In this document: positions 10,327-58,942 of the stretch, one piece after another
Numbering within the stretch: the first letter of the stretch is position 1
Layout: each line of letters opens with the position of its first letter
Assembly: GCF_963678975.1 (NCBI RefSeq)
Contig: NC_089280.1
Span: 19,831,863 to 19,895,862 of the forward strand
Length of the DNA: 64,000 nt
Source of the DNA: Dysidea avara
Lineage: Eukaryota > Porifera > Demospongiae > Dictyoceratida > Dysideidae
Direction of reading: 5' to 3'
Translations under genes and position numbers: made by a program
Notes under the pieces: generated by a model
Seen by the model: only the letters and a program-made list of their open reading frames with translations
Databases searched by the model: none
What the model was told of the DNA's origin: nothing

Positions 10327-10358
<32 letters not shown>

Positions 10359-31461: not shown

Positions 31462-32892
31462 TAGTCTCGCATGGCCAGACTGCTTTTTTCTGTATATTGG
31501 CTGGGGAAAAAGGGTCTGGTGCAACTCTAATAACTGTTTACTTCTGTCTGGGGACGCTAATTGAATAACATTGACCGCAAAGGAGGCGCCGATGACGTCA
31601 GTAAGTAAACTCAAGATCTGTATATTATCTATGGTTTATCCTTTAAATACTAGTTAAAGCACCGCCGCGAGTGCAATATGGGAAAAAATAGCACGAGGGC
31701 GTGGGCGGGAGACTAATACAGCACGAGGCGAAGGCGAGAGACTAATACAGCACGAGGCGAAGCCGAGTGCTGTATTAGGTTCGAGACCATGCCCGAGTGC
31801 TATTTTTTCCATATTGCACGAGCAATGGCGGTGCTTTAACTGGTTTATTGTACTAAAGTAGTGGCTGCGAAGAGTGGGGGTGACGCCAAGTAGCAGGAGG
31901 TGAGTGCCTATCCGCGTAAGCTCGAGACCGTGTGTATTCACTGCAGTGATTAACATTATTCATACTCGTTCATACTGCCTCCAGCGTCAGAGCACCAGCG
32001 TGATGAAGCTAGCTAGCTACGTAGCTTTAATTGATTTGAGCTGCCGAGAGCGACAGTAAGTGGCCAACTGCTTCTTTCTCGGTTGAGGCCTGGCTTAAAG
32101 CCCATGAGTAAGTCTGTGACTTTGTTATAGAGAGGCTTGCTATTGTGTTTGGCGGGTGAGAACGCATTTATGAAGCCATGGTGTGGCGCTGGGAATGATA
32201 CCACGAAGGCAACTGGAGCGAATTAACTTATCGTGTTCCACCTGGCTTTACAACGTGGACAGGAGTCATTTTGTAGTGTTGATAACACCGTGTGCTCTGT
32301 TCCTTTTCCCTAAGAATGTAGCTAATTCGCCCACTTGTGTTTAGGTCATGGCATTGTTCTATGTGTTTATGATATGTCATAATTGTTGAATGGCTTCATA
32401 ATATTGCAGTGGTTTGGTGAAAAGAATGCGATAACGGCATTGGTCATGCTTTGGTCAACTTGTTTACTGTTTCAACAGTGCTGTATTGGGATCAAAGGGA
32501 AAATACAGCACACTTGAAATAAATACAGCACCCTGCCAGCTTTGAAGTGTGCAGCCAGGTATACAATATGGAATAAAAGTACACTTTTCACTTTGATCTT
32601 TTCACCCAAAGTACAATAAACGAATCTTAATTTGCTCCGATGTTTTTTTTATAGCGTGATGTCTCTTTTATAGCGTCTTGAAAGTTCATAACAAGACTCA
32701 CAACCGGAGCAGGAGTGTAGGAATACCTCATAGTTTTACTGACGTCATAGCACCTCCTTTGTGACCAATGTTATTCAATTAGCGTCCCCGGAATCTGGGG
32801 AAGGCTCCAAAGTAAACAGCTATTGGAGTTGCACCAGACCCTTTTTCCCCCACCCAATACACGGAAAAAAGCGGTCTGGCCACGCGAGACTA
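31462..32892. mobile_element. Foldback element, Mutator-like, copy 2
   Basis: It has the same TIRs as 3283-3732 (TAGTCTCGC...), with a 9-bp duplication gctttgacc at 31453-31461 and 32893-32901. Relative to copy 1 it is split at ttatcctttaaa / aaacgaatcttaa by a roughly 970-bp hairpin-headed element. Its own two arms differ more than those of copy 1, so it is probably older. Confidence 0.8.
31650..32618. mobile_element. Hairpin-headed repeat element, copy 2
   Basis: It starts with a long hairpin (31652-31845) built on ttaaagcaccgccgcgagtg and gcaatggcggtgctttaa, with internal tandem agcacgaggcgaag units. Its tail (acttttcactttgatc, cccaaagtac) matches the element in the KDM8 intron. It sits within the MULE foldback; taaa flanks both sides and may be a 4-bp duplication. 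Non-coding. Confidence 0.6.
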
Positions 32893-33437
32893 GCTTTGAC
32901 CGTGCTGGAAACAGTTTGACCGTTGTTTAGTGAAAAATCGGCTTTGTTCATTGACCTTTAGTTTTGACCGCGGTCGCAGATCGTAGTACAGTGCCTATTG
33001 GAGGGTAGTCACTAATTTTCGGACTGGACTGGACCAGTGGACCAATACTCCAGCGCACTCCACGGAGTCCAGTCCGCATTTTAGAAGCTTGTGACTAATT
33101 TGCGGACTATATAACCACAGCACGACAGATATATCGCCTTAATACTTGGCTATTTATTTCTTAATTAACATTTAGGCAGGCTAACCTGTGAAGCCTGTAA
33201 TTAGAAGTTTCTCTTTACATCGCTGGGGAAGGCCGAAACACGGAGAAATTACGATGCATGATGCCTAATTTCGTTACCATGGATAGCAGCTGCAACTATA
33301 GTAGGCGAGAATGTCCTTAACAGCTCATCCTATCATACTGAACCAAGCAGAGGAACTTAACGTGGGAAGCAGCCTACGACATTCTTACAGCGCAAGATGA
33401 AAAATATGTGGAATCGACCGTACCACCAGTGAAACCC

Positions 33438-37019: not shown

Positions 37020-39500
37020 TACATTGCAAGTTAATCTGTAGGGAATTCAGCTACAAACAAGTCACCCTGTAGTCAGATCAGCTAGAAGAAGGTACCTAAT
37101 AGAGAGTTCAGCTACAAAGAAGCCATCGTGTACAGAGTTCAGCTCAAATAAATCACCCTGTAGAGAATTCAGCTACAAACAAATTGCCCTGTAGAGAGAT
37201 CAGTTACCCTGTAGAGAGTTCAGTTACAAAGAAACAATCATGCAAAGAGTTCAGATGCTAACAAATCACTCAGTACTCAGAAAGTTCCACTATGAACAGA
37301 TCACACTATAGAGAGTTCAGTTAGAAACAAGTCATCCTGTAGAGAGATCAGCTAGAAGAAGTCACATTGTAGAGAGTTCAGTTACAAAGAAACAATCATG
37401 CAAAGAGTTTAGCTGCAAACAAATCACCCAGTAAAAAGTTCCGCTATGAACAGATCACACTGTAGAGAGTTCAGTTAGAAACAAGTCATCTTGTAGAAAG
37501 ATCAGCTAGAAGAAGTTACCTTGTAGAGAGTTCAGTTACAAAGAAACAATCATGCAAAGAGTTTAGCTGCAAACAAATCACCCAGTAAAAAGTTCCGCTA
37601 ATAACAGATCACACTGTAGAGAGTTCAGTTAGAAACAAGTCATCCTGTAGATAGATCAGCTAGAAGAAGTCACTTTGTAGAGAGTTCAGCTACAAAGAAA
37701 CCACCATGTAAGAGAGTTCAGCTGCAAACAAATCACCTGTAGAGAGTTCAGCTAGGAACAAGTTACCCTGTACAGAGATCAGCTAGAAACAAGTCATCCT
37801 GTAGAGAGTTCAGCTAGAAGAAGTTACATTGTAGAGAGTTCAGCTACAAACAAATCACCCTGTAGATAGTTCAGCTAGAAGCAAGTCACCCTGTAGAGAG
37901 ATCAGCTAGAAACAAGTCACCCGTAGAGAGGTCAGCTAGAAGAAGTTACATTGTAGAGAGTTCAGCTACAAAGAAACTACCATGTAAAGAGTTCAGCAGC
38001 AAACAAATCGCCCTGTAGAGAATTTAGCTCACCCTGTAGAAAGATCAGCTAGAAGAAGTTACCTTGTAGAGAGTTCAGCTAGAAACAAATCACCCTGTAG
38101 AGAGTTCAGCTAGAAGAAGTTACATTGTAGAGAGTTCAGCTACAAGAAACTACCATGTAGAGAGTTCAGCAGCAAACAAATTGCCCTGTAGAGAATTTAG
38201 CTACAGACAAATCACCTTGTAGAAAGATCAGCTAGAAGAAGTTACCTTGTAGAGAGTTCAGCTACAAACAAATCACCCTGTAGAGAGTTCAACTAGAAAC
38301 AAGTTACCCTGTAGAGAGATCAGCTAGAAACAAGTCACCCTGTAGAGAGTTCAGCTAGAAGAAGTTACATTGTAGAGAGTTCAGCTACAAAGAAACTACC
38401 ATGTACAGAGTTCAGCTGCAAACAAATTGCCTTGTAGAGACAAACAAATCACCCTGTAGAAAGATCAGCTAGAAGAAGTTACCTTGTAGAGAGTTCAGCT
38501 ACAAACAAATCACCCTGTAGAGAGTTCAGCTAGAAACAAGTTACCCTGTAGAGAGTTCAGCTAGAAGAAGTTACATTGTAGAGAGTTTAGCTACAAAGAA
38601 ACTACCATGTACAGAGTTCAGCTGCAAACAAATTGCCCTGTAGAGACAAACAAATCACCCTGTAGAAAGATCAGCTAGAAGAAGTTACCTTGTAGAGAGT
38701 TCAGCTACAAACAAATCACCCTGTAGAGAGTTCAGCTAGAAACAAGTTACCCTGTAGAGAGTTCAGCTAGAAGAAGTTACACTGTAGAGAGTTCAGCTAG
38801 AAACAAGTTACCCTGTAGAGAGTTCAGCTAGAAGAAGTTACATTGTAGAGAGTTCAGCTACAAAGAAACTACCATGTACAGAGTTCAGCTGCAAACAAAT
38901 TGCCTTGTAGAGACAAACAAATCACCCTGTAGAAAGATCAGCTAGAAGAAGTTACCTTGTAGAGAGTTCAGCTACAAACAAATCACCCTGTAGAGAGTTC
39001 AGCTAGAAACAAGTTACCCTGTAGAGAGTTCAGCTAGAAGAAGTTACATTGTAGAGAGTTTAGCTACAAAGAAACTACCATGTACAGAGTTCAGCTGCAA
39101 ACAAATTGCCCTGTAGAGACAAACAAATCACCCTGTAGAAAGATCAGCTAGAAGAAGTTACCTTGTAGAGAGTTCAGCTACAAACAAATCACCCTGTAGA
39201 GAGTTCAGCTAGAAACAAGTTACCCTGTAGAGAGTTCAGCTAGAAGAAGTTACATTGTAGAGAGTTCAGCTACAAAGAAACTACCATGTAGAGAGTTCAA
39301 CTGCAAACAAATTGCCCTGTAGAGACAAACAAATCACCCTGTAGAAAGATCAGCTAGAAGAAGTTACCTTGTAGAGAGTTCAGCTACAAACAAATCACCC
39401 TGTAGAGAGTTCAGCTACAAGCAAGTCATCCGGTAGAGAGATCAGCTAGAAGGATCACCTTGCAGAGAGGTCAGCTACAAAGAAATCATCTTGCTTCATC
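37020..39500. repeat. 30-bp minisatellite with ~207-bp higher-order repeat
   Basis: About 80 monomers of roughly 30 bp with the core tgtagagagttcagcta followed by variable caa/gaa and cacc/tacc ends. In the left half (to about 38300) monomers are irregular. From about 38360 a fixed series of seven monomers repeats, with the marker ttacattgtagagag at about 38365, 38570, 38836, 39042 and 39249. That gives a period of about 206 bp, except one unit longer by two monomers. All frames are unlikely to be coding. No transposon ends were seen. Confidence 0.9.
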
Positions 39501-40944: not shown

Positions 40945-41195
40945 TGTAAAAATTTAGTAGTGAATTGCTCTGCCACAATACTCACTACTTTTAAGTAGTG
41001 ACGTTCACTACTTTTTGTAGTGAACGTCACTACATTTTGTAGTGAACGTCACTACTTGGTGGTCAATGTAGTGACGTTCACTACAAAATTAGTAGTGAAC
41101 GTCACTACACAAAAATAGTGAGTATTGTGGCAGACATTAGTAGTGACGTTCACTACATTTAGTAGTGACGTTCACTAGTTTGTTTTTACTGTGCA
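40945..41195. repeat. Palindrome array built on TAGTGACGTTCACTA
   Basis: Eight or so copies of the 15-17-bp near-palindrome gtagtgacgttcactac in both orientations, separated by short A/T spacers. They are framed by a larger inverted repeat (ccacaatactcacta / tagtgagtattgtgg). Each core contains TGACGT or ACGTCA, the CREB/ATF half-site. It may be a foldback MITE interior; regulatory activity is only a possibility. Confidence 0.75.
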
Positions 41196-41199
41196 CACA

Positions 41200-41457
41200 C
41201 ACACCTATACTCTTACAAATCACTATATCACCTTACCTGCTACATTATCGAGGTTGCTATCCAGTTTTAAGTAAAAACAATCTGGGAGGTTTATTAAAAC
41301 CCACAAGCACAAAATTTTGTGGCAGTTGACATTCAAAAGTTTACAGAAATAACCTAAGAAAAACGTACACCAAATGTACTCTGTGGTAAACAAATGTACT
41401 TCCACAATGAAAATCTACAAGTAGCACTATAAAAGAAGTGAAGAAAGGCAATTTTTT
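41200..41457. other. Left flank of U2-headed array
   Basis: AT-rich sequence with no recognised gene. If this was a U2 gene, its promoter should lie here, but I see no clear proximal element. Confidence 0.3.
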
Positions 41458-41557
41458 ATCGATTCTCGGCCTATCGGCTAAGATCAAGTAGAAATAACTG
41501 TTCTTCTCGGCCTATCGGCTAAGATCAAGTAGAAATAACTGTTCTTGTCAGTGTGAA
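41458..41557 (+). ncRNA. U2 snRNA-like 5' sequence, tandemly repeated
   Basis: Two copies with a 41-bp period carry ttctcggcctatcggctaag, then atcaagtagaaataactgtt. As remembered, the human U2 5' end is TTCTCGGCC..TTGGCTAAGATCAAGT...CTGTTCTTATCAG, so the stem-loop I part and the segment after it match closely. The branch-point pairing segment (GTAGTA in U2) is not kept, so this is unlikely to be a working U2. It is the head of the LINE array that follows, and could be a target remnant or a U2-derived 5' leader. Confidence 0.65.
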
Positions 41558-41603
41558 GTCCGTTAACTGATCTGTGCGCCCCAGGCGGGTAAAACTCTGT
41601 TTG

Positions 41604-41927
41604 ATGACGCAACGAGGAAGCAAACCCAGTGGACACGATGGTGATGGACAGGCCAGAGGAGAGATGTTCCAAAAAGACGGAGAATGGACAATAGTGGTGG
41701 AAATTCCCGAGCAAACAACCTTCACCTGTCCGATATGTGTGACAAGCTTTAACATATTTTCTAGCCTTACCCGGCATCTGACATTGAAGCATCCGGGAGT
41801 TACCGTGACACTACTGCACCAATGCTGCGAGTGTGGAGAACGCTTCGGGAGCAGGAGGAAGCTGGGAAGACACAGCAAATCGCACCAGAATCTACCGGCC
41901 TCACAGCCGAAGCGCCTGGGAGACTAA
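41604..41927 (+). CDS. LINE copy A: N-terminal zinc fingers
   Basis: The frame starts at ATG 41604. Two C2H2 fingers are visible: CPICVTSFNIFSSLTRHLTLKH and CCECGERFGSRRKLGRHSKSH (first at about residue 42, second at about 75). Such fingers bind target DNA in R2-type elements. The frame is cut off by the L2/CR1-like insertion at about 41925, and its last dozen residues run into that insert. Confidence 0.8.
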   Translation: MTQRGSKPSGHDGDGQARGEMFQKDGEWTIVVEIPEQTTFTCPICVTSFNIFSSLTRHLTLKHPGVTVTLLHQCCECGERFGSRRKLGRHSKSHQNLPASQPKRLGD

Positions 41928-42612
41928 CAATCTATCTGATCAACATACTTACTTGGGAGTAATCCTTAATACATCACTATCTTGGTCACAACACATTTCT
42001 AGTATTGTCACTAAAGCATCTAAAACACTTAATTTCCTGAAACGTAACTTAAACAAATGTTCAGAACAAGTTAAAGAATCTGCTTATCTAACAATGGTCA
42101 GGCCACAACTAGAATATGCATCTGACGTCTGGGACCCTCACCAAACTGGAGATATTGTAGAGCTAGAAAAAATACAACGAAGAGCAGCACGCTGGGTAAT
42201 GAATGATTATGGTAGACTTAGTTCTGTCACCTCAATGTTAAATCAGCTTTCATGGCCAACTCTCCAGACTCGCCGCAAATTATCTCGACTACAAACTTTA
42301 CACAAAATTTTTTACCAACAAATATCACTTACAATTCCTCCATACTACCTACCAACATCACGATCCACGAGACAGTACCATCCACTGCACTACATCTTAC
42401 CACATGTATCTACCACTGCACACCAAAATAGTTATTTTTCAAGAACAATTAATGATTGGAACTCCTTACCAGTAGATCTTGTTGAAGTTGCAGATGCTGA
42501 CATTTTTAGAACTGGACTACAATCATTATTGTAATTGTGTTACATGTATTCGGGCAAATCTGAGCACACCAGCAGGGCTGACTGCTCAGTAATAATAATA
42601 ATCAATAATCAT
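41925..42612 (+). mobile_element. L2/CR1-like LINE, 5'-truncated insertion
   Basis: An open frame of about 200 codons matches the RT C-terminus of L2/CR1/Jockey-type LINEs: TYLGVILNTSLSWSQHI, MVRPQLEYASDVWDPHQ, LEKIQRRAARWV and INDWNSLPVDLVEVADADIF, ending at a TAA near 42534. A short 3' UTR and a TAA-rich repeat tail (42590-42612) follow. The open frame implies a fairly recent insertion into LINE copy A. It splits the third zinc finger from the first two. Confidence 0.85.
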
Positions 42613-43829
42613 AATCATGTTCATTCTGTGAAGAATCATTCGCGTCGGAGAGAAGCAGAAGTGGACACGAGAGGAACCAACACCCTATCCTCTTATCGAA
42701 AAAATTAGCAACGGAGGCCGCTAAAGACGCAAGGAAAGCCGCTTCGCGACCTAACGCAGCAGCATCACAGCCAGTCCCTTGGCCAGTGGAACTCGTAAAT
42801 TTACTGATCAGAGCAATGTTTGTGGTGGGAACAGAATCCAACGTTGCCCTAGCAAGGGAGATGGGTACCTCTAAAACTCCCAACCAAGTTGGAGGTGCCA
42901 AGCTAAGAATCCTTAAAAAGTACCCAGATTGGAAATCTACCTTCTCCTACCTCAACCCAGATAACAGCCCATCATCAGACTCCACACCCAGTGACAGCAG
43001 TGATGAGGAGAGCAATGAACAGGCCTCCCCACCCAGGTCAGTACCAGAGAGAGAAGATATAGAAATCATAGTACTGGAAGAGGGAGCTGCACAAACAATA
43101 GTAGTGGAAGAGGGAGCTACACAAGTGGAGCCAACAGGATCACAAGGTGAGGTAGTTACCATTGTTATTGCATATCCCCTACAGGTAGCTCTAGAATGCC
43201 CCCATTGTTGCATGAAATGGGTGGGTGATGCACTGGAGGGATACATCGAACACTTATCCTCCAGTCACAGCAACTTCACCTACTCATATATGTTTGTGTG
43301 TGCCTTGTGTGCTGCCCACACCGATACTGAACACGAGGTATTACAGCACCTAGTCAATGAACATATCCCCGACCTGGCAACACTCCCAATCTCCACCATC
43401 AAACAGGGTAAGAACACACTGTTACCTTTGCTAGAGGGTACAACTGAGAATGGAGGTGATGGGCTAACCTCCACACATCCAACATCCCCCCCTCTAAGTG
43501 ATGAGGAAGAAGTCCCACCATTGCCACCCCCTCTACCCTGTATGAGAGAGTTCATGACTCCATCAAAGGACCAACCTCAAACACCACCACTACCAGACAC
43601 CCCAGTGCCAGATGTTGGACCACCAAGTACACCATCACAACTCTACTCCCCAATATCAGATGCCCCATTACCTGTGTCACCCAGATCACCGGCTACAGTC
43701 AACAATGAACCTGCCCTACCACCAGAATCTACGTCTCCACAACCCCCTCCCCCAGGGATCCGCAGGCACCCATCTGGTGGTAGAGACAAAGATAAGGAAG
43801 CAGAAGAAAGAAAGAGGAAGCTCCAGTGT
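42613..43829 (+). CDS. LINE copy A: third finger, Myb-like and Pro-rich region
   Basis: From 42627 the frame reads CEESFASERSRSGHERNQH, the tail of the third finger (CEESFASSKGLSQHIRNQH in copy E). WPVELVNLLIRAMFVVGTES follows and resembles the Myb-like segment of R2-type proteins. Next comes a second pair of Cys/His motifs (CPHCCMKW..., CALCAAHTDTE...) and a long Pro/Ser-rich linker. The last residues belong to the BEL/Pao insertion that begins near 43830. Confidence 0.75.
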
Positions 43830-46800
43830 AGGGTAGCGGTGATAGTATAATGTAGTAGCCGGTTGTCAGACTTAACCACGGTAGGATCGCTTCATCTTCG
43901 ACGGATACAGACTGTACAATCAAGCCAGCGAGGAACTACACTACGACGCCATTTTATTCATTATAAGCACGTGCATGACATTACCTCATACATTCTAAAT
44001 ATAGCCTACTTAACTAATAACCTATACACTGCACTACGTTAAGTTGCTTAGTCAGTCCATGACATCTTCGGGGGGGGGGGGGGGGGGGGGCACCAAGTTC
44101 CTTGATCCAGGTCCTGACCTTATCTCTACCACGTTCTGCAGCTCTTCGTTTGGGACGCCCAGCCTCTCTGGTTGCATTGTTACTTGGATCACTGTTAGCT
44201 GCACTCTGGATGGATACATCCTTAACACAAGTACTGTCATTTGACAATGAATTGGTGGATACTTCCAGTGGTATCAGCCTGGCGATAGGGCGGTTGGTTT
44301 TATCCTGAGCAGTTCTGATGTTGGCAGCTCGTACCAGTCCATCATTCCCCCGTAGTAAGTCTTCAACCACCGCTAATTTCCATGAGATCCTTGGGCTGTC
44401 ATCATGTACCAGTACAATGTCACCTTGCTTAATCTGTTGAACATTATTCCCAGAAGCTCTATGGTGTTCTCTGAGAGAGGTGAGATACTCATGTCTCCAA
44501 CGTGACCAAAATTGACTAAGAAGAGCTGCTTGTAAGCGTGCTCTTTGATTCACTTCTGAGTAGTCACCAAAGGTAGGATCATCTATGTCTTGTTCTGTCA
44601 CCTGTTCATGAGGAAGAGACACAATACGGCGTCCATGCAGCAGTTGTGATGGAGTCAGTGGTTCAAGGTCATTTAATTCACAGGAAACATATGTCAGGGG
44701 TCGGTCGTTCAGAATAGCCTCTACCTCCGCTATCAGCGTTTGAAGGACTGCTAAGGTGACCCTTGATCTTCCAAGTACCTTCTTCAGAGCCATCTTAGTG
44801 AGTCCAATGAGACGCTCCCACCAGTCACCATACCAGGGAGCACGCTTTGGTATGAAGCACCACTGAACCCCTTGTCTCCCTAGCATGTCTGCAAGATGGT
44901 CTGACTGTAGGAGTCGTTGTAGCTTTTCTGCTGCTGCTGTATAAGTGGAAGCATTGTCTGACACAAGGATCTGTGGTAAGGATCTACGACTGGCAAATCT
45001 CCTAAACGCTAGAAAAAATGTCTCCACACTCAGGTCTGTCACAATTTCAAGGTGGATTGCCCGGGTTGTGGCACATGTAAACAGGCAAACATACACTTTG
45101 GATTCTGTGCTGGAGTTCCGTACATACAGTGCCCCAGTAAAGTCTATTCCAGTAATGGAGAAAGGATCTGACTCACATGTGCGGATCTCTGGTAGGGGTG
45201 GAGGGTCTGGGACAGCATATGGCTTTCCACTGTGTTTACGACAAATTACACAATGACGTAGTAGTGATTTGATCCGTTGTCTAGCAGTGGGGATCCAGAA
45301 TCTCTGCCGTATGGCTGTTAGAGTAGCATTAGTCCCAGCATGAAACAATCGTAAATGCACGCTGTGAATGACAAGTGATGTTAAGGTGTGTTTGGGTGGG
45401 AGTAGAAGTGGAAACTTAGCTGTTTTGCTGAGAGGGGCGTTATGTATTCTGCCACCACAACGAAGCATGTGATCTTCATCCAAAAACAGACGGAGTTGCC
45501 TAACAAGTGGAAGTCTCTTAGCAGTTGATGACGGAGAGGTGAGGCTTGCAATCTCCTTGGAATACATTTCTTCTTGGCATTGTTTCACCCATGTGACCAG
45601 GGCATGATGTAGCTCTAATGGTGTCAGTGGACCAGTAAGCCTCCCCTGTGGTTGCTTCCTACAGTTGGTGATAAATCTGCAAAGATAAGCTGTGACTCCC
45701 AAAAGCCTGGATAGTGTGCTGTAATTAGATATGCCAATAATGTGGTGAATATGTATGGTACCTGCACTCCTTTGAAGGGTGGTTGGGTTGAAGGTGGTCA
45801 CAGTTACAGCCAATGCTTGCATTTCAATGTTGGGTGAAGATTGCCAAACAGGCCAACTATTTTCAGAAGGTAGCCATTGGGGCCCATGGATCCACAACAT
45901 CGACGACTTCAGTTGTGAGGAGGAGATCCCTCTGGTAAGCAAATCTGCAGGATTGTCCTGTGTTGGACAGTATCTCCAGCTTTCTGATCCTGAGAGTTCA
46001 AGAATCTGAGTGACCCGATGAGCCACAAAGACGTTGTTCGATTTCTGTCCCATAATCCAATGAAGGGCGATTTGGCTGTCTGACCAAAGCTGAATGGAGA
46101 GGTTGAGAGTGGTAAGAGCTTGTAATATAAAACTGCATAATCGTGCTGCTGTAAGTGCACCCATCAATTCAAGTTTTGGTAGAGTGAGTGGCTTGAGGGG
46201 GGCAACTCTGGACTTTGCCATGATGAAGGAAGTGTTACTGCCTCTACATATGAAGGCCACTGCTCCATAGGCTGTGAGACTGGCATCAGCAAATACATGG
46301 AGCCTATCAGGTTGCTTGGAGGCACTCACTGTAGGGGAGTATTGTCTTGGGATCTGTACACTCTTGGCTTCTTGGATGTTCTCTGCTATGTTTAACCACT
46401 GTTTCTGGTCCTCATCAGATAATGGCTCGTCCCAGTCCACATTGCGTTGCCACAATGACTGCATAAAGGTCTTGGCTCTAATGGTCACTGAGGATAACAA
46501 TCCTAGTGGGTCGAAGATCTTACATGATTCTCTCAAGACTTCTCTCTTCGTGACAAGTGAGGTTACACTAGGAATCGGTGACTTAGACATGAGAGATAGT
46601 GTGTCTGTCTATGTATCCCACTGTAGCCCTAGAACATTGACTGGGTTGTTGGCATCCACTACCTTGTCCTTAGATGCTTGCTCTGTGAGTTGGGGGCTAT
46701 TAGAGGCCCAGCTCCTCAAATTCAAGTTGGCATCCTTCATTATGGAGCGAGCATCATTGTAGTATGAGACAGCCTCTGATTCTTATTGGCACCCGGACAC

Positions 46801-48053
46801 TATGTTATCCACATACAGATTGGCAAGCATGTTCTGTGCAGTGGGAGATCTGTACTGAGACAAATGGCAGTGTAAAGCAGCATTCAACATGAAGGGTGAA
46901 CATACGGCACCAAATAGGACTACCTTGAATCTGTATGTTACCAACTCACTTTCTGGGTTCTGTGGATCACTCAGCCAGAGAAATCTAGTGTAGTCTCTAT
47001 CATCTTCATGTAGAGAGATGTGCAGAAATTCCTTCTCTATGTCTGTGCAAACTCCAACAGGATGACTCCGGAATTGCAGAAGGATACAGCACAAATCATT
47101 TAGTTGGGGTTCACCTGTGAGTAGACAGTCATTCAGACTGGGTTGGTCTCTTGCTTGATGGCAGCTGCAATCATAAACTATACGTATCAGAGTAGTCGAT
47201 GATTCTTTGTGAACAGGATGATGTGGAATATAATGGCATCTCACAGAATTGGTTATGTGTTGTATTCTCTCAATAAAGCCGCGGAGTTCCTGATCCACTA
47301 GAATCTCACTGTACTTGTTAAGTAAAGGAGGGGTTAGTGCCAACTTGCGGGCCAGTGCTCTAGTGCGGTGGGCACAGGTGGAAAAATTAGTGGGAAGAGG
47401 TGGGTGGCTATCCTTCCACGGGAATCGAGCACTGTATGAACCATCAGACAGACGCTCCACATTATTGGTAATATACGTATCCAGGAAACTGTTGGTGAGT
47501 TCATCTTTAGGAGTGATTCCCACTGATTCTACAGACCAGAACTGTTCCAGGTTGGGAGTTGGTTGGGTCGCCACATGAAATGTGTTAGCAACTATCTTCC
47601 CTTGAGTGGTTGTCTCCAACGGGCCTGAGAGTAGATAGCCAAGCTTGGATCCCACAGCTGTGGGTCCATTGCCTCTGATGACATGGTCCTCCACTATGTT
47701 CCAGTACTGGTCAGCTCCAATGAGCAGGGTGATGGAGAATTGTTCATCTGAGGAGATTGGATGTGCCAATTGTAGCCCAGCTAGGTAAGGGAGATTGACA
47801 ATTGCCTTGTGGTCCACAGTGTGTATTGGTGCAGCAATCGTGGGAACAATAAGAACAGTTAGCGGAATCACCTTACCAGAAATACCATGGAGGTTAATTG
47901 TAGCAACGTCCAACTTGGTAATGCTACTAGTTCCAGTACCAAACGTGGACAGTGAAAGTTCCACAGTGTCATGTGGCTGCACTTGTAGGCAGTCTGCTAC
48001 TCCTTTGGTAAGGAAGGAGCGCTGGGACCCCTCATCAAAGAGGACAAGCTTTC
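43830..48053 (-). mobile_element. BEL/Pao LTR retroelement fossil inside LINE copy A
   Basis: An LTR-class fossil on the minus strand, BEL/Pao family. Parts recognised, in order of its own transcription: aspartic protease and reverse transcriptase (47982 down to about 46783), RNase H (about 46590-45900), integrase with its zinc-binding segment (about 45300-44500) and a 3' terminal region at 43830-44010. A gag region and a second long terminal repeat were not recognised. It carries an unusual poly-G run at 44071-44090. It is incomplete, with a few breaks, but long stretches remain open, so it is relatively young. It interrupts LINE copy A between 43829 and about 48054. Confidence 0.85.
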
Positions 48054-50935
48054 TCCACTACTGGATGAGGATGAGGTGAGTAATTGGGACATGTTTGAGC
48101 AGGTACTCATACAAATGAGCATGGAGCTAAGAGAAATCACGTCACGCCAACCCAGCAGCCAACACCAAAACAGCAATAATCAAGCTAGACATTGGAGGAG
48201 ACGACAGACGCGACAGAGGGCTAGCCAAAACAACACCACAAATCGTGATCGCAGGACCTGGGACAATGAAGAACAGAGAGGCCACAGAGTCCATCAGGGC
48301 AGGGTCAATAACCAACAGAATGACAGATCACAGAACAACAGGACATCAGGAAGACAACGGTGGATACGGGAAGCACAGAAACTGCAAGGAGCATACCGTC
48401 GCAATGCCAAACGCTGTGTGGCCCAAGTCACTGGTGAGGAGAAACCGAGAGAGAACTGCCCCATACCGATGGACACCCTGACCAAGTGGATGGCGAACGC
48501 TAACATCCCACCACCAGGAGAGAAGCCACCCTGGATAGAAGAGCCCTCTGGGAACACCGAGGATGCACTAAGCGCGTCCTTCAGCCCCAGGGAAGTAGTG
48601 GACCAACTTCGACGTCTTCCAGGTAAGTCAGCCCCCGGACCAGACAGAATCACCTACTGGCAATGGAAACAACTAGATGGCCAAGGTAAGCTCCTGTCCA
48701 GCAATTTTCAAAATCTGCAGGAAGTCGACACGAGTGCCACAACAATGGAAGGAGAGCACCACCACACTGATATACAAAGGTAGGGGCGAGAAAAGCGACA
48801 CCAGCAACTGGCGACCCATCAGCCTGCAGAACTGTTTGTATAAGATTTATGCTGCCATCATCGCCAAACGTATAGCATCATGGGCCATCAGCGAGGGCAT
48901 CATTAGCACCTCTCAGAAGGGCTTCCTGTCCTATGAGGGATGCTTTGAGCACACCTTCCTTCTCCAGGCATGTCTTCAGGACTCCAGAAGAAAGAAGAGA
49001 AATGTTGCAATTGCATGGCTGGACCTAAAGAATGCCTTCGGCTCAGTCCACAATAGACCATCTACTTAGGTCAATGGAAGATCTGGGCCTAAGTGGGAAG
49101 GTTGTCGAAGTAGTAAGGGACATTTACACAGGCTCTACCACAAGAATCACTGCTGGTACCTCTCATTCTGAACCGATCTCTTGTGCTCGTGGTGTCAAGC
49201 AAGGGTGCCCACTAAGCCCCATTCTCTTCAACTTGGCAGTGGAGCAGCTGCTTAGGGGAGTGGAAGGCCTGAATGGAGGCTACCTCTTTGATGAATTTAC
49301 ACTCAAGGTGTTGGCATATGCTGATGACCTGTGCCTAGTGGCAAGCACACCAGAAGAGCTGCAAGCCATGCTGAGACGAGCCGAAGAGTTCGCCAGCTCT
49401 GGGCTACACTCACTTTCAACATCAAAAAGTGTGGTACCCTTCACTGTAAGAGATCAGGCAGAAGATACTTTGTGGCAGAGGACACCCTGTACCTAGGCAA
49501 GCAAGCGCTTCCTATCCTGCACTATGAGGATCACTACAGATATCTGGGTTGTGATCTTGGTGCAGATCCCAAGGCACACCTGAACAAGGCGGAGAAAGGG
49601 TACATTGAGAAAGTAAGGAAGATTATGGAATCAAAGCTAGCAGAGTGGCAGAAGCTTGAAGCCATCAGAAGATTTATTCACCCTACCCTAGATTATGTGG
49701 TGAGGACCATGCTTCCCAACAAGACGTGGGCAAACAACATTGACAGCCACACCAGAAGGTTAGTTAAAAAAGCTCTACGGCTGCCAAAGTCTGCATGTAA
49801 TGCCTTCATCCATTGCCCTTGGAAATTTGGGGGCCTGGGAATTCCTTGTGTTGCAGACAATCTTTAGATAGCGTGGGCCTCCCAAGCATTCAAGTACCTC
49901 ACCAACAAAGATGACCATGTGAAGAGTGTGGCAACACAACAACTGCTAGATACCACCAGAGCAAGAACAAGATGCACATCCCCTAACCCTGAAGATGTGC
50001 TGCAGTTTGTAAATGAAAGCAGCTCCGAAGCTACTCGCCACTCTGACATAAGGTCTCTTTGGAGTCTGTTACCAGGTTGACTAAAGTCACTCGGCGCAAA
50101 GCTACAAACCGGAAGCGAAAATCTGGAGCTGAAAGTGGATGACACAACCCTCAGAGCTCATGAGCATCGCAAGGTATCAGGACTGCTGAGGGATTGCTTC
50201 AACCAGGGGCATCTAGAAGCATGGAAGAAAGCAAAGGACCAAGGCAGATGTGCCAACAATGTCTCCCTCCACCCCAGTAGTAACCACTGCATATCCACAG
50301 GCCAGTACACATCATTTGCTGCCTACAGATTTGCCATCAAAGGAAGAATTAACACCCTACCCGTACACACAGTACAGAGAAGAACAAGGACCCTCAGAGG
50401 CTCCATCAATTGCAGGAAATGTAAGTCACAGCCAGAAACCCTGGCTCACGCCCTGAACCATTGTCGACCTTTGATGGGACTGATAAGAGAATGCCACAAT
50501 GAAGTCCTCCAGCGACTACAGCGGGCCGTTCCACGATCACTTGGAGAAGTTTTCCTAGAGCAAGAGATACCTGGCGATCCTGAACACAACCGCCCAGACC
50601 TAGTAGTCTTAAACCACACAGAAAAGAAGGCCATCATTGTTGATGTCACCATCCCATATGAGGGGGAGTCGGATGCACTACAAGCAGCACAAGACGCCAA
50701 GATGTCAAAATACAACAATCTGGCAGCATGGCTCAGGAGCTCCTTTGACCATGTACACCTTGATGCCTTTGTCGTTGGAGCCTTGGGATCATGGGACCCC
50801 AAGAACTTGAGTGCTCTAAAAACCCTCAAAATAGGAAAGAACTACTCAGTCCTATTCAGGAAGCTGTGTGCATCATCTGCCATCACTGGTAGCCACAAAA
50901 TCTGGACAGCCTTTTGTGGCACTGGGGCAGGTTAA
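48054..50935 (+). pseudogene. LINE copy A: RT and restriction-like endonuclease
   Basis: The frame resumes with SPLLDEDEVSNWDMFEQ and a Gln/Arg/Asn-rich linker. RT motifs: SAPGPDRITYWQW (about 48630), WRPISLQNCLYKIYA (48810), WLDLKNAFGSV (49018), GVKQGCPLSPILF (49192) and the catalytic YADDLCLV (49318). Thumb: VKKALRLPKSACNAF. Endonuclease: a CCHC knuckle CRKCKSQPETLAHALNHC (50412), RPDLVV (50603), IIVDVTIPYE (50635) and a downstream K-x3-KY, the PD-(D/E)XK signature. Frameshifts lie near 48690, 49050 and 49400; stops are TAG at 49867 and TGA near 50080. The final frame ends TAA at 50935. Confidence 0.85.
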
Positions 50936-51713
50936 ATTTCACCCCTTAACTAGCCCCCCCCCCCCCCCCTTAAGTTAATGTAAATAAATAGTTAAAGTAA
51001 TAACCAAAAAATAAATAAAATTTTTTAAAAAAATACAAAAAAAATTTTTTTTTTTAAAACAAAAATAAAAATACAAAAAAAAGCTTTGTGAATGTATGTG
51101 TGTCAGTTCCCTCATAGGTTTGTGTATGCCAACATTCATTTCATGTATGTATGTGTCAATGTTTCTAAATGTCTTGGTGTGGTTCTTCTGCTTGCTGTTC
51201 TCTTTTCTGCATGTCCTGAATACGTCACGATACCTCAAGCTTTGTTCTTTAGTTTCACACCTATAGTGGTTGGAAGAACACCTCCTGGCCAGTATGATTA
51301 GTCTCCACAAAAGAGCTAAACCACGCTGGGTCAAGCTGATGTCCCCTGTACATAACCTCTCAACAAGAGACAGGTCTCACAGGGGATACCCTTTACCTGA
51401 ATCTGGAGCATTCTGACTTTGAGCAAAAGCCATTTTGTGCCAGTAGTAACAAACTACAGAGCTGAGTGCACAGTCTCTTGAAAAGAGCTGGGGAAACACA
51501 GCCCCAAGTAGCTATTCATCACCTCCCACAGCTACAGGAGCTACCCACCTTCCACTTTCTTCACACAGCTGCTCTAGAGCACCACTGTCTCTAGCAGATT
51601 TCCAACCCACCCAGTCTGTAAGACTGAGGGGCCCACCAGCGATGGTGCATTAGGGTTACCTTCCCTAATGAAGGCCCTCCTGGCAGTTGCAGCTGCGCTG
51701 CTGGTGAAAATTT
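50936..51713 (+). other. LINE copy A 3' UTR
   Basis: It begins with a poly-C run and a very A/T-rich low-complexity part (50948-51080). A structured end follows: gaggggcccaccagcgatgg, then a ttaccttccctaatgaaggc hairpin and gctgcgctgctgg. The same pattern ends the short element at 52202, so it is probably the RNA feature read by the RT. It ends at a U2-like 20-mer. Confidence 0.6.
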
Positions 51714-51734
51714 AACTGTTCTTGTCAGTGTAAT
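51714..51734 (+). repeat. U2-like 20-mer junction, 1
   Basis: aactgttcttgtcagtgtaa occurs here, at 52202 and (ending gtgaa) at 41537. It matches the U2 segment CTGTTCTTATCAGTTTAA as remembered. It marks the boundary between LINE copy A and the next element. Confidence 0.75.
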
Positions 51735-52201
51735 GGCACTGCAATCTTTTTTCCAGTCTCGACTCTTCTAAGAGTGGACTGAGGGACCAACTTGATCCTA
51801 CCGCACAGGGTTGTGGGACGTCCCAGAAGAGCCAAAAGCGCTCCTCTGTTATGCTTGAGTGTGTGTGTTTGTTTAGGTGGTTTACTTCCCTGTCAGTTTG
51901 CTAGTCCAAGACTAGTGGCCGGATTACCGCTTCTCAGCCGATCCCCCTTGAGAAAGACCTGAAGGCTTAGTCCTGCCTCTTCTTAAAAGCCTGCTGCAAG
52001 TATACCAGGGAGCTGGGAACGCTGTGTCGGAGTCCAGGTCTAACCGGTCCTCTCTACCTCTGTTCGAAGATAGCTAAGGAAGTTGATACTCAGGTCCGGC
52101 ATCCTTTAAGCCGAGGGGCCCACTCACAAGAGTGCACTAGAGTTCCTTCTCAAGTGAAGGCCTTCCCCAGCTCAGTCCAGCTGTGCTGGGTGGAAACTTA
52201 G
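51735..52201 (+). mobile_element. Short non-autonomous U2-associated element
   Basis: A 470-bp block between two identical U2-like 20-mers. It has no coding frame of note. Its last ~100 bp (gaggggcccactcacaagag, then an agttccttctcaagtgaagg hairpin and cagctgtgctggg) have the same architecture as the 3' end of LINE copy A, while the rest is unlike it. It looks like a SINE-type passenger using the LINE's 3' end. A severely truncated member of another LINE family is an alternative. Confidence 0.6.
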
Positions 52202-52222
52202 AACTGTTCTTGTCAGTGTAAT
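52202..52222 (+). repeat. U2-like 20-mer junction, 2
   Basis: A second exact copy of aactgttcttgtcagtgtaa, 488 bp after the first. It is followed by the 5' end of another element. Confidence 0.75.
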
Positions 52223-52660
52223 TGGATTGTATTTTCGGTGCGCCCCAGGCGGGCGTAATTATAAGTAATTCTACGATGGCTGAAAAAGTACGCCGCCGCA
52301 GATTACTGCCGACAATACCAAGCAGTACAACGGAACCCGAAGATGTCACTACGCGTGTGGAGGACCAGAACCGAATGATAGCAGAGAAGAAAGCGCACAG
52401 CAAAGCAATGATAAAGTAACCATCAGAATCGATTACCCAAGCCAGTCGACCTATAAGTAGCGATTTCCAGCCAACCAATTTTTCACACATATCAGTTTTT
52501 GCTACTTAAATTACACACCTTCAATAAATGTTTCACAAGCTGCTGTTCCAGTTAATGGCAGTCAATGTTTCGTACTTCGTAATGCACTTTACTGGATTAA
52601 AATCCATGCGGTCAGTATTTATTGAAATAGCTATGTCAAATCAAAGTTTGAGAAATAAAA
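52223..52660 (+). mobile_element. 5' end of a third U2-associated LINE (copy C)
   Basis: After the U2-like 20-mer comes a leader with gtgcgccccaggcggg, identical to the block downstream of the U2 head in copy A. A small open frame follows from ATG 52276 (MAEKVRRRRLLPTIPSST) to TAA 52419. No zinc finger follows. The sequence becomes unrecognisable and is bounded by the large inverted-repeat element at 52664. It could be a truncated autonomous copy or a second non-autonomous form. Confidence 0.55.
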
Positions 52661-53704
52661 ATCCCCATAGGTAGGGTCCGCAATGAAAAAATCGATGATC
52701 ACGAAATTACTCCCCTATCATTTCAACCTGTAGGGCATATCAAAGTGTTTTTCTACGTACCAATAAAACTTATTTATTTTTCTCCATACGATGGGAATCG
52801 CGATTGTTTTGTGCTGGAAATCGTGAAAAATTGCGCGCTCTTCGGATGAAGCATAGGTTCCTTCCCATACTTGGCATATATAGTCCAGGTATATACCTGA
52901 TTATAACCCACAGCAGAAATAAATCGATTTGCTACTGTGGGTTTGGTACGGAGCTACTCTTTGCCGAAAATCGGCCGAAAATCACGTATTTTTGGATTCG
53001 GAGCAACCCAGCAATCAACAAAAGGAAAGTTCACAAACCTTCACTATACAGCAATATAGTTTGGTTATCACTTCATACACAGCACAAGTTTCATATGGAT
53101 CTGAGCTTTCCTTCCATCAAACTAAGCGTCATGAAATTTCTTCCTAGCGCGTCTGAGATTAAAATGGGAGGTGTGGCTGTAATAATTCCAAGTTTTAGTT
53201 TCTCTAGCAAGTTATTTAGGTTTCAATATATACCTAATGGTATTAGCTTCCAACTAGAAATGGATCACGTGATTATGGATTGATTTTTTGTGTGCAGTAT
53301 AGCTATACATGGTTAGCTATGTATAGTGGTATAATCCAGGTAAAATTTAGTATTTTATCAACGTTTGACTGAGACACCATGTACTGGTGAAGCATAGAGT
53401 TAAGCATAGTAAAACTCGGATTCTACTAAAAATAGCAGTGTTCTTTGTATGTAAGAGCAAGATACTCTAATAGAGCAGTCATGTAAACAGCTAGTCTCCA
53501 GTCTCTCTATTATATTTTGTTCTCTTTAGTAAGAAAGTAGAACCCATAAACAGGAAGGTAAAAGTGCAATTGGAAAGAACCTCAGCAGTATCAGATTACT
53601 GGTTGGGGGCACACCATAAATGAATCCACATTATGGGTACATGGCTATACACAGAGGCAATATTTATAGCAAGATTAGGTAATAAGAAAAATTATGCTGC
53701 TAGA

Positions 53705-54381
53705 CATAGGCGGATCTGAGGGGGGCCAAGGGGTGCTGTGCCCCCCCTGGCCCTTCTCTTGCCCCCCTTTGACCTACAGTGCTATATTGATACCAGAAAC
53801 TAGAATCATGCATTCACACTGTATTCAGAAGTATAGAAAGCCAATGGGCAAATAGAAGGTAACAGTTATAAATGTACTTTACAGTTGTAGCTAAACTGTA
53901 TACTGTAAAGAAAGTAAGGCAAATAAATTTGCAAAGATCGAGATACTCTAATAGAGCAGTCACTACTCTAATAGAACAGTCGCAATTCTAATGTCATCAA
54001 TAATATCTACAATTTTTACAAAACTAGCTACTCCTTATTTTGATTTAATGTACATTTCACCATCAAACAGACTTGTCTCAGATAGGCTAACCAATCTTTG
54101 TATACATTGCAAAGCATACACTTTGTTGGCTAAGTGCTATCAAAAATGCTCTCAAATTCAAACCTAGGAGGTCTAATTTTTTTAATTTTTCTCCAACTAG
54201 TCTTAAAAACTGTTGTATGCCCATCATTCAACCAGCTATATGCTGAATAAAGTTATGCAAATGAATATAACTTGTGACTAGAATTCCATTCTTATCCTCT
54301 TAGTGGAATAAACATTAAAACTTCTTGCCCCCCCCCCCCCCCCTTGCCCCCCCCTCACAGTGTCTCCTAGATCCGCCTATG
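53705..54381. mobile_element. Element with CATAGGCGGATC ends, 8-bp duplication
   Basis: Ends CATAGGCGGATCTGAGG and CTAGATCCGCCTATG, with a perfect 8-bp duplication ctgctaga (53697-53704 and 54382-54389). The 28-nt motif is at 53935-53962. Long C/G runs lie next to both ends. Its ends resemble those of 33438-33939 and 39835-40701, which show 5-bp duplications instead. Inserted within the centre of the large inverted-repeat element. Confidence 0.75.
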
Positions 54382-54629
54382 CTGCTAGAGTTTCAATTCA
54401 CTACAATAATGATTCTATATAGCTGCAGGGGCATTTCAAAAAGAAATATTGGTATGAATTGCCAACCTTGCACTACTAAATGGCACAAGACACATTTTTG
54501 ATTAATTAGCTATACCCTACACTAACTTTAACTGTAAGTTTTGTACATGTAATGATTTGTATAGGTCCTTCTAGTATACTGCTAAGTAAAAATTTCATCA
54601 CACAAACAGGCTGTCAAATTATAATGTCT

Positions 54630-54725
54630 ACAAAATTGTAATTTTCCTGTGCCTTAATCATACTCCCTGGTGGAGACTCAACACAGCAATAAATACAATA
54701 CAATATAATTATAATTATAATTTTA
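54630..54725 (+). pseudogene. Possible LINE 3' tail
   Basis: tactccctggtggagactca followed by acacagcaataaatacaa resembles the 3' UTR and tail at 34360-34400. Too short to be sure. Confidence 0.35.
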
Positions 54726-54729
54726 ATGG

Positions 54730-55864
54730 TACAAATACATAACTATATAATTATATTTTAATTAATTTTGCAAGCTTTTAAATTTCTGTTTTGCTTGTAG
54801 GATGTGCATGCAATTTTATGTTGAACTGTATAGACTGTATGGTATATATATTTTGGTAAGGTATTGCATGTGTGAGATGTAGACATTTACTACAGTATCC
54901 TTTTATTATGAGTCATAAGTTAAGGACTTGTGATACTCGGTATAACATGCAGTTATCAATGGCCTATGTCTTTTTTTTTTAATTTTTGCTGTGAAAACTT
55001 CACAAACAGAAGAATATACACAGATATAATATAATAAATAATGTTAGCTATTGATTGCAAAATAATAGTTATGTAGCAGAGATTTGAATATGTCAGTGTT
55101 TTCCGCTTCAAAGATGTAGCGAGTTAGTACGTTCCATTGCCTTGATGTTGATGGTATAAAGGAGTACTTGTAGGTGTCAGTGTTACAAAATGGTTCAATG
55201 AGTCTGAACATAAGGCATGATCTGGTCTGTAGCTGGTACTGTGATGTCTGCAGATGAAACGCAGGTATGTATTCAGGTGGTAAATATACATTTTGTTTAA
55301 GAATGTTGTATAGTATAGTTAAGGAGAGCTGTTCTCTTCGAGACTCTAGTGATTCCCACTCTTCCCACTATGGATCTATTACCTTAAATGTGACTTAAAA
55401 TTTGATTTCTAAAGTACATGTGATTTTCTTCAATGACTTATAAACCTCACATAAATTCAGGAATAGCTATACACATGCATAGACAGCTCTGCAGAGTGCA
55501 TGTGATACATATATTATAGAGCACTCAGTACATTGTGGCTGTTGGTATAAGTTATCCAACAGGCCTTTGGTGCAGTTTCTCACGATAAAGCCAAAAATAA
55601 GTGATACCCTTCAGCTATGGGTGAAAAACCTAAAATTACTTGTTTATTATTAAAGGCTCATATATATATACAGAGTAATTTCCTGCAGCCTGCTGTAAAA
55701 ATATAAGATTGAGGACATACCTCCCTTAATTTTAAGAAGAAATTAACTGCTAAACTTATATACCACTGATGTAAATGACTTTTGTTGGCTCTAAAATATA
55801 TATATATGTATAGTATGAAATACTCTTTGTCAGCTGTCTGCTTCAAATCCGTTAAATACCACGA
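54730..55864. other. Centre of the large inverted-repeat element
   Basis: AT-rich, with no recognised coding sequence or RNA. Confidence 0.35.
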
Positions 55865-56683
55865 CTGTTTATATGACTGTTCTATTAGAGTATCTCGATC
55901 TTACATGCAAACAACCCTGCCATTTTTGGTAGGACCAAAATTTTACTGTGCCTAACTCTAGTAGCTTCGTCAGTGGTGTGGCAGTCAGATGTTGATAAAA
56001 ATACTAGTGAAATTTGCCTAGATAATACCACTACATAGCTAACCATGTATAGCTATAATGCACACGAAAAATCAATCCATAATCACGTGATCCATTTCTT
56101 GTTGGAGACTAATACCATTAGGTGGTCACAACATAATATTGAAACCTAAATAACTTGCTGGAGAACATAAAACTTGGAATTATTACAGCCACACCTCCCA
56201 TTTTAGTCTCAGACGCACTAGGAAGAAATTTCATGACGCTTAGTTTGATGGAAGGAAAGCTCAGATCCATATAAAACTTGCGCTGTGCATGAAGTGATAA
56301 CCAAACTATATTGCTGTATAGTGAAGGTTTGTGGGCTTTCCTTTTGTTGATTGCTGGGTTGTTCCAAATCCAAAAATACGTGATTTTCGGCCGATTTTCG
56401 GCAAAGAGTAGCTCCGTAACAAATCCACAGTAGCAAATCGATTTATTTCTGCTGTGGGTTATAATCAGGTATAGACCTGGACTATATGTGCCAAGTATGG
56501 GAAGGAACCCATGCTTCATCCGGAGAGCACACAATTTTTCACGATTTCTAGCACAAAACAATCGCAATTCCCGTCGTATGGAGAAAGATAAATAATACTT
56601 TGATATTCCCTACAGGTTGAAATAGTAGGGGAGTAATTTCGTGATCATCGATTTTTTTCATTGTGGACCCTACCATAGGGAAC

Positions 56684-58942
56684 CCGTACAAATAATTGCG
56701 TACGTAATATCAAAACTAGTCTGTACATTTTGTCAAATGAAGCCATATGCGTATTTCGTTTTTTCAATACATTTTGTACGCAAAACACATGTTTTTAAAG
56801 CGTAAAGTTTCATTACACCTTACACATTAGACTTTTCCAAAAAAAAAACAGGTGGAATTAACAATTTCTAACCTTCAGCTTTCTTTTGTTCAATAGAGGA
56901 TATGCATGCTATATTATTCGAACGAAAAATGATCAGCGGCGCGGCGCTTCCAATAAAAGTTGATGGTGAACGACTATCGAAGATTTACGAAAATTCCATA
57001 TAAAAGTACTGGGTAGTGAATGCGGCTCGAAGTATAACTCGCCTTTTAAGCTACAAGCAGGCTTTCTATTGTCGTGAACGATTACCACAAGGTCACGAAA
57101 AACTCATATAAAAGTATGGGCAGTGAATGAATGTTCGAACTGGAACTCGCCACTAAAGCCACGGGCTAGCTTCTTCTCGCCGGATGTACTACTTCTTAGG
57201 CAGAAGGATATGTCACTTAGTAAGAATTGCTCGTAACTGATCTACCGTCCTTGTAATGAATCGATTCGCATTCCGTTCACCGTCATGACGTATGAAAAAA
57301 TCACGTGTTCATTAGAATGTATTCGGCAGTGCATATCCTCTATACAATTTTATCACAATTCAACCGGGAAGTCACTGCTCTTGCAGGCTAAAGTCCGTTG
57401 ATTGCAAATAACTCCCATACATTGCGTATTGATGATTGCGCATGGCTCAATTATCGCGATGATTCTAAGTCACACATGGAGAAATCCCCATTAAAACGGG
57501 TAGCATTATTTAGAGCAGTCTAGCAGCAACAGGTTGGTGTGAAATTTATGTGGATTGCGACAGTATTTGCCAGTGCTCTCGTGGGTTAAACGTTTGTAAC
57601 AAAAACTCCATATATTTGAATGGACACACGAAATACCTACTTCCCAGAGAGCTACTTTTCGGATGCTACTCGATGCAACAGGGGTTCTAGTGGACTGAGG
57701 TTTGTAGTAATGTATTTTATATCAAGTAGGAAGAGAGATTCTACTGGTAACTCAGAGTCAAATTTTCGTATACGCGTAATTTAATTTTTGCGGTAAACTT
57801 GACACAAGTTTTGATATCGGAATGCGGCACCGGTGATAGTCAAAGTTTCCGAGTGTTTCCGCCTGAATCTATGGCTGATGAGGACGAAAAAAGTGTTCCT
57901 GGGCAAACCCTATACGCTGATTTCGATTCTTCCGTGTGTTTTTTGATTGGAGGATGATTGAAGTTGGATTACGACGAAAATATGGCTCTTTAAAAGGTAA
58001 ATCGCCAACTAGCACTGTTCAAAATCCAGCATTACAATCACCCGGGACTTCAAGGCATCCCTCTGCATCGGTGCAAGTATAGTTTGAAGGTGAGCAGTTT
58101 GTTGTCTCGTGCGGAATTGCAATATAAGGTTCAAGGTTGAGCATAATCTTTTCAAAAGTGGAGACTGGCACGTGATATCAGCCTTGCATGGCTTCACACT
58201 CACCTGTTGTTATATTCTGGTGTATTTACTGCTATTTTTATCCATTTTATAGGAGCTTCAGTGATTGTAATTTTGGTCAGAAACTATTTATAATTTCTCT
58301 TTGTAGTATAGTGATGTCATTGTGTTGTATAATAATTATCATCCTTAGTGCTTACAATGTGACAAATAAAGCTAAACAGTGTCCAAAAAAATCTATTTCA
58401 AAATAATATCGGTCTTATATTTTGTTATCTGATTGTCATGTCTCCTGTTGATTGTGACTTGTGATGTCACTACTTACCATGTTATATAATATTACTGATT
58501 TTTCTAGTTAGCTATCTCTGAAAATGCATTGGGTACCTGTGTATACTTAGTATTACACAATATACAGTTTTATTTGTGAATCACTTGCTTTATTCATGTA
58601 ATATTCTGAGTCGTCATTCTACAAAGAAGTGGTCACTCTTGAGAGGTTTTACCTATCTCATATGCTGTTCTCCATAAAATAGATATGTGGTGAAAATTTC
58701 ATGTTATTAATAGTTTCCTATCTAGATTTATGACACTTTGAATATTGTGTTTGGTGCCATGTGATATACATAAAAAGCACTGAAAATGCTGTACTCAAAA
58801 ATCATCACCCTGTCAACTTCTTTTGCTTATATCTTTTGATAGGAATCACTGATTGAGGTGGGGTTTACACTAAAATGACCCTGAAAAATAGCACAATATT
58901 TGTCATACCAATGAATGCATGGAATGTTAGTTATTTAATTAA
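56684..58942. other. Unrecognised region upstream of LINE copy E
   Basis: It contains two imperfect units of about 110 bp in tandem near 56960-57170 (shared pieces: catataaaagta and gggcagtgaatg-type blocks). A pair of complementary ends, atagaggatatgca near 56895 and tgcatatcctctat near 57330, hints at a small element. A short frame from ATG 57872 (MADEDEKSVPGQTLYADF) could be a first exon, perhaps of SYF1, but nothing confirms it. The rest shows no gene. Confidence 0.35.

Follow-up and report, generated by a model that had tools for sequence, protein, structure and literature searches.

Utopia-like retrotransposons arrayed head to tail at a U2 snRNA-like site in the sponge Dysidea avara

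Organization of the locus

A stretch of 64,000 nucleotides (nt) from Dysidea avara (RefSeq assembly GCF_963678975.1, contig NC_089280.1, positions 19,831,863 to 19,895,862, forward strand) was analysed, which is referred to here as the window and numbered from its first base. It carries three non-long-terminal-repeat (non-LTR) retrotransposon sequences, E1, E2 and E3, behind a sequence that resembles the 5' part of U2 small nuclear RNA (snRNA), and the same 20-base piece of U2 stands at all three element 5' junctions (3/3). A first-pass annotation had described a long interspersed element (LINE) headed by the 5' part of U2, with elements following one another head to tail where the DNA resembles U2, and this arrangement was recovered. 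The array consists of the following features, where RT is reverse transcriptase, RLE restriction-like endonuclease and ORF open reading frame:

41428-41433, + strand: TATAAA, possible promoter remnant, weak, lying 30 bases ahead of U2 nt 1
41458-41503, + strand: first copy of the U2-like segment, nt 1-45 (repeat comparison and consensus comparison)
41504-41556, + strand: second copy of the U2-like segment, nt 6 to about 57, branch-pairing segment altered (repeat comparison and Rfam)
41537-41556, + strand: left copy of the putative 20-bp target-site duplication, one difference (20-mer scan)
41557-51713, + strand: E1, RLE non-LTR retrotransposon resembling Utopia, disrupted by nested insertions as well as by frameshifts and stops
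51714-51733, + strand: putative target-site duplication at the E1/E2 junction, exact
51734-52201, + strand: E2, 468-bp 3'-end copy, predicted 3' fold in common with E1
52202-52221, + strand: putative target-site duplication at the E2/E3 junction, exact
52222-52458, + strand: 5' part of E3, with the GTGCGCCCCAGGCGGG block common to E1 and the ORF start
52459-58956, no strand assigned: DNA transposon within E3 (8-bp duplication)
58965-62104, + strand: remainder of E3, zinc fingers and RT, 3'-truncated (likeness to E1 stops at 62091)

The U2-like remnant

By comparison with the Rfam consensus, the U2-like sequence at 41458-41556 corresponds to nt 1 to about 57 of U2 snRNA. Rfam U2 matched at 41499-41613 (39.2 bits, E 4e-5), and no other match at E ≤ 1 lay within 41300-52700. 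This score is under the Rfam gathering score of 46, so a gathering-level scan of the window returned nothing; the 5' part alone is present. Clear likeness to U2 stops at about nt 57, later positions of the model fall on element sequence, and the 3' half of U2 is absent from the window. Positions 41463-41503 and 41504-41544 form an exact 41-bp duplication (41/41 identical) that covers U2 nt 6-45, in agreement with the 41-bp period proposed earlier for the leading segment.

Where the consensus reads GUAGUAU (nt 33-39), GAAATAA was found with one added A in front, while the adjoining segment GGCTAAGATCAAGT is intact. GUAGUA within GUAGUAU is the branch-pairing segment of U2, and GGCTAAGATCAAGT pairs with U6. 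The branch-pairing segment is thus not kept, as the first-pass annotation had stated, and because of this alteration the copy is probably non-working and degenerate. The deviations from the consensus at nt 5, 16, 18, 48 and 54 may be no more than ordinary variation: the Phytophthora U2 fragment TCTGTTCTAATCAGTGTGAAA likewise has CAGTGT (PMC4640811). If the copy is dead, the intact host U2 genes should carry GTAGTATCTG, with the 20-mer variant restricted to this site.

The exact tandem duplication and the altered branch-pairing segment would also suit a target that was a U2-derived satellite or repeat, with the 41-bp duplication as its remnant. A precedent is the U2_sat of Ciona, which is the target of YURE (PMC4640811), and many tandem copies with AGAAATAACTG would then be expected. 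Against this, there are two units only, no second Rfam U2 match appeared at the thresholds applied, and the first copy starts at U2 nt 1 with TATAAA 30 bases upstream, like the start of a gene, so a satellite is considered unlikely as the target. The TATAAA motif was spotted post hoc; it occurs 39 times on the + strand of the 64 kb and once in 41301-41469. Either a dead U2 target, which is preferred, or a U2-derived repeat suffices to explain the site, and no evidence was found for the earlier suggestion that the elements bring the site along as a decoy. At 41000-41180, upstream of the remnant, short palindromes like GTAGTGAACGTCACTAC are repeated.

The 20-mer at the junctions

The 20-mer AACTGTTCTTGTCAGTGTAA was found at 41537 (with one difference), 51714 and 52202 only, when both strands of the 64 kb were scanned with up to three mismatches. 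Shuffled sequences contained it 0.03 times on average and reached three places in 0/100 cases; the reuse of a U2-like 20-mer at the junctions noted in the first pass is thereby upheld. It equals U2 nt 38-57, and since a T follows it at both E2 and E3, nt 39-58 is an equally good reading. The U2 5' part continues unbroken into the left copy, and the 3' ends of E1 and E2 (2/2 of those seen, E3 being without its 3' end) run into the same 20-mer. The 20-mers are best read as target-site duplications of U2 nt ~39-58 between serial insertions.

The 20-mer had previously been described as introducing each element. Its occurrence at all three junctions, in two of them identical, could indeed reflect a U2-derived end or promoter carried along by the elements, but E2 has the 20-mer without the 5' block of E1 and E3, the left copy is preceded, in register, by U2 nt 1-38, and the sequence beyond the 20-mer diverges after a few bases. 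Ownership by the elements is therefore very improbable, and target-site duplication is the better description. Two further element starts had also been proposed behind E1; both lie at 20-mers, but one is the 468-bp 3'-end copy E2, and the other opens the long E3.

Domain organization of E1

E1 is about 10 kb long and has zinc-finger, RT, CCHC and RLE domains. Zinc fingers, RT and a restriction-like endonuclease had been proposed for the LINE, and all three were confirmed by Pfam, PDB and motif matches. Its parts, including nested pieces of other elements, are:

41721-41888, + strand: two C2H2 zinc fingers (Pfam)
41930-42610, + strand: fragment of a different LINE, with a reading like the C-terminal part of an RT and a TAA-rich tail (named and bordered by eye)
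42615-42968, + strand: third C2H2-like finger and three-helix stretch, possibly Myb-like, unconfirmed
43851-48057, - strand: piece of a BEL/Pao LTR retrotransposon, approximate borders, seemingly 5'-truncated
48331-49867, + strand: RT region spread over three frames (Pfam RVT_1, 4.1e-16)
50081-50935, + strand: CCHC knuckle (50411-50464) and RLE with RPD, KMSKY and GSW (PDB and motif search)
51622-51713, + strand: predicted structured 3' end (RNA fold prediction)

In the PDB, the solved structures closest to the C-terminal part of E1 are R2 protein chains, with a best E of 4.9e-16. The knuckle has the form CX2CX8HX4C, its first cysteines enclose the conserved R, and the RLE motifs RPD, KX2KY and GXW are all present, according to the motif definitions of PMC5678591. 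No Pfam match to an apurinic/apyrimidinic endonuclease (APE) was obtained in the E1 ORFs scanned. The BEL/Pao piece was recognized by Peptidase_A17 (1.3e-46), DUF5641, rve, DUF1758 and RVT_1, with no LTR pair among the repeats found in the window, while the other-LINE piece at 41930-42610 gave no Pfam match at 0.001. E1 is judged to be dead because its RT lies in three frames, the LINE and BEL/Pao pieces interrupt it, and in-frame stops occur near 49.87 and 50.08 kb.

The third finger is weak (Pfam E 0.16) and is followed by predicted helices. This order bears on whether the elements might be R2-homologous proteins with zinc fingers and Myb that use a U2 site, rather than Utopia. According to PMC13188248 (2026), sponges have Utopia-like proteins as well as R2-homologous ones that bear Myb; that paper places the Myb-bearing sponge relatives under R2-homologous and takes the absence of a Myb domain as a criterion for Utopia. 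No Pfam Myb match was found in E1. A 71-residue model showed helices at 11-24, 26-36, 42-55 and 59-64 with a predicted local distance difference test (pLDDT) score of 64, which is of low confidence, and it had no significant fold match (best PDB match E 2.9, a SANT domain at E 5.5); a 125-residue model reached pLDDT 51. A PDB sequence search with the Myb-like stretch returned just two subtilisin chains (E 0.9 and 1.3). A Myb domain is not claimed, and an R2-homologous assignment is regarded as quite unlikely. Moreover, a zinc finger/Myb region is present in all early-branching LINEs (PMC5678591) and may not discriminate.

E3 and its relation to E1

E3 is not a stub: it spans 52222-62104 with an interruption, and the array, whose end had been put at 52660, thus extends to about 62.1 kb. 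A 6.5-kb DNA transposon is bordered by the exact 8-bp duplication CTATAAGT at 52451-52458 and 58957-58964, and its two ends are similar (TAGCGATTTCC and TAGAGATTTCC). Once the empty site is restored, the E3 frame is open across it and into the zinc fingers; together with the exact duplication, this makes the two parts one element. Inside the transposon, an inverted repeat of about 830 bases pairs 52662-53490 with 55865-56681 (87% alike).

The 5' untranslated region (UTR) of E3 has a 19-base block in common with E1 (18/19 identical), and both elements are colinear from the zinc fingers through the end of the E3 RT. Their RT blocks share 68% identity over 93 aligned residues, so that E1 and E3 are, on sequence grounds, two related but distinct zinc finger-RT lineages. 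Against solved structures, the E3 RT scored best with R2, above or equal to one other RT and L1. This ranking agrees with the RLE group and fixes no clade.

E2 and the predicted 3' fold

No ORF of 150 codons is present in E2. Its last ~100 bases match the 3' end of E1 (77% over 124 nt, target-site duplication included), and the simplest view of E2 is a copy of a related family that was truncated at its 5' end. This family may be that of E3, which lacks its own 3' end. RNAalifold on the E1 and E2 3' ends predicted a three-way junction and a hairpin with 30 pairs, from which 4 inside the target-site duplication were left out. The remaining 26 pairs hold in both E1 and E2, with 8 of them changed on both sides. 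In a second alignment, made without the target-site duplication, 25/25 pairs hold in both sequences, 4 are changed on both sides, and the last hairpin aligns otherwise. Helices 13-17/22-26 and 27-34/42-49 show two both-side pair changes each in either alignment, whereas shifting the partners by 1-3 columns left 35-54% of cells paired. The three-way junction, with its four both-side changes, is the robust part of the predicted fold, and the 3' sequence and fold common to E1 and E2 are a candidate for recognition by the RT. No other copies of the 3' fold were found in the window at E ≤ 10 beyond the two model sequences.

Proposed origin of the array

The array very probably arose when RLE non-LTR retrotransposons of the Utopia type inserted serially, by target priming, into a single degenerate copy of the U2 snRNA gene. 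The RLE would nick U2 on its bottom strand at nt 38|39, the RT would recognize the folded 3' end and prime cDNA at the nick, and a top-strand cut 20 bases downstream would duplicate nt ~39-58 at each insertion. The left target copy would then retain nt 1-58, with both sides of the nick, and could be reused. Because the left copy keeps the nick site, later elements would land upstream, making E3 the oldest and E1 the youngest. The duplicated stretch includes U39A, and all three copies share this change, so the target would already have differed from canonical U2 before these insertions; the other branch-pairing changes may be as old.

Several points count against this proposal. The first 20-mer deviates by one base, and the term degenerate depends on the constancy of GUAGUA. 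The right edge of the array is unseen, as the window lacks the U2 3' half and the E3 3' end is missing. The predicted fold was built from the same two sequences in which it was evaluated, which favors it; shuffles attained the observed values in 2/500 cases for the first alignment and 26/500 for the second. In addition, 4/8 of the both-side changes hinge on the alignment chosen, and one A-U stem position of E1 is A-A in E2, a pair that the predictor left out. The E1 knuckle, CRKCKSQPETLAHALNHC, has no Y and has K after the second cysteine, and a conserved Y is reported for the Utopia knuckle at a position not well fixed by the text of PMC5678591. The class assignment is by target site and domain order. 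Finally, the tandem structure could come from unequal crossing-over.

Such crossing-over, or gene conversion, between U2 loci with different elements would account for E1 and E3 being of different lineages, and recombination and gene conversion among U2 genes are discussed in PMC4640811. Between the elements, though, just the U2 20-mer is present, and recombination of whole loci would usually leave more; this route to the array is held to be rather improbable, and serial insertion is preferred.

Comparison with known U2-targeting elements

Utopia belongs to the NeSL clade and comprises U2 snRNA-specific RLE non-LTR retrotransposons with the domain order ZF-RT-ZF-RLE, ZF being zinc finger (PMC4640811, Kojima and Jurka 2015). 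According to the same paper, the U2 sequence that follows Utopia in Phytophthora starts at nt 39, the Utopia 3' flank is the same as that of Keno, reptile Utopia produces 20-bp target-site duplications and arthropod Utopia none. The present array agrees in its U2 site before nt 39, in the 20-bp duplication of the reptile families, in the ZF-RT-CCHC-RLE order and in tandem stacking. It differs in its target, where the branch-pairing segment is changed and 41 bp are duplicated, and in that two lineages and a short copy are stacked with the 20-mer alone between them.

Both Utopia and Keno had been named in the first-pass annotation as families that target U2 genes. The Utopia type was retained; Keno uses the identical U2 site but has an APE endonuclease (PMC4640811), in contrast with the RLE of E1 and the absence of an APE match there. 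YURE resembles the present case as a related element in non-working U2-derived sequence (PMC4640811), but here there are two 41-bp units and no U2 satellite array in the window. R2 and the sponge R2-homologous elements (PMC13188248) are alike in that the PDB relatives of the RT and RLE here are R2, and in the fingers ahead of a possible Myb-like stretch. The R2 site is in 28S, whereas the flank here is U2-like, and Rfam at gathering scores detected no rRNA in the window.

Tandem stacking, presented at first as a departure from known elements, is already on record: Utopia-1_NVit of Nasonia occurs occasionally in tandem, and different Utopia families lie within one Phytophthora U2 array (PMC4640811). 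The type of array is therefore already described, with a few unusual details here. In titles and opening lines of abstracts from the literature on Utopia and U2 elements, and in PMC4640811 without its supplements, no stacks of different Utopia lineages in one degenerate U2 site were encountered. That such a site holds two lineages together with a short copy suggests that non-functional U2 copies can be hit repeatedly. One speculative and rather doubtful extension is that a dead U2 copy serves as a landing pad that renews itself: the 20-bp site is restored at each insertion, and different Utopia lineages pile up there while the few working U2 genes are spared. If so, this would touch on a problem posed in PMC4640811, namely how several families maintain themselves on a U2 target of low copy number.

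Searches for relatives and 5' structures

Protein scans with the E1 RLE, the E3 RT and the E1+E3 RT alignment gave no confirmed relatives in viral contigs, nor did the E1+E3 RT alignment in genome contigs; tblastn with the E1 RT block against plasmids found nothing at 1e-5. No Utopia or NeSL sequence turned up in these viral, genome and plasmid collections. The 20-mer, with one A written as R, was found 0 times in viral contigs. Its 18-mer core occurred in seven stretches of the genome contigs, all titled bacteria, and in one of the viral contigs; by our estimate, the seven are about the chance expectation.

Rfam gave no match at E ≤ 1 to a self-cleaving ribozyme like that of hepatitis delta virus (HDV) for the 5' end of any of the three elements. 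An HDV-like descriptor also gave 0, as it did in 12/12 shuffles for each of the three regions, which proves little. Single-strand folding of the three 5' ends yielded nothing usable. The extension of the Rfam U2 match into the E1 5' UTR raised the idea of a U2 stem II mimic, which was put down to chance because the matching partner is absent from E3.

Other features of the window

Next to the truncated E3, exons resembling the splicing factor SYF1/XAB2 lie at 62107-63850. The first was identified as SYF1-like by Pfam (PF23233, 4.3e-13), while the XAB2 name and the later exons were assigned by eye. With these spliced exons, the LINEs and the BEL/Pao sequence, the window has a eukaryotic content. 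An in-frame TGA at 63770-63772 could indicate a pseudogene or a sequence error. A fused protein of E3 RT and SYF1/XAB2 was considered and rejected: cacacag, which is like a 3' splice site, precedes the exon, and the in-frame run-on is probably due to chance.

Elsewhere in the window, a perfect palindrome of 312 bases is found at 10187-10498 (100% against its own reverse complement) and a near-perfect one of about 600 bases at 4291-4886 (95%). An inverted repeat at 3283-3732 has 157-base arms that are 100% alike, with a related copy at 32617-32897, and a long array of diverged tandem repeats occupies 37030-39490.

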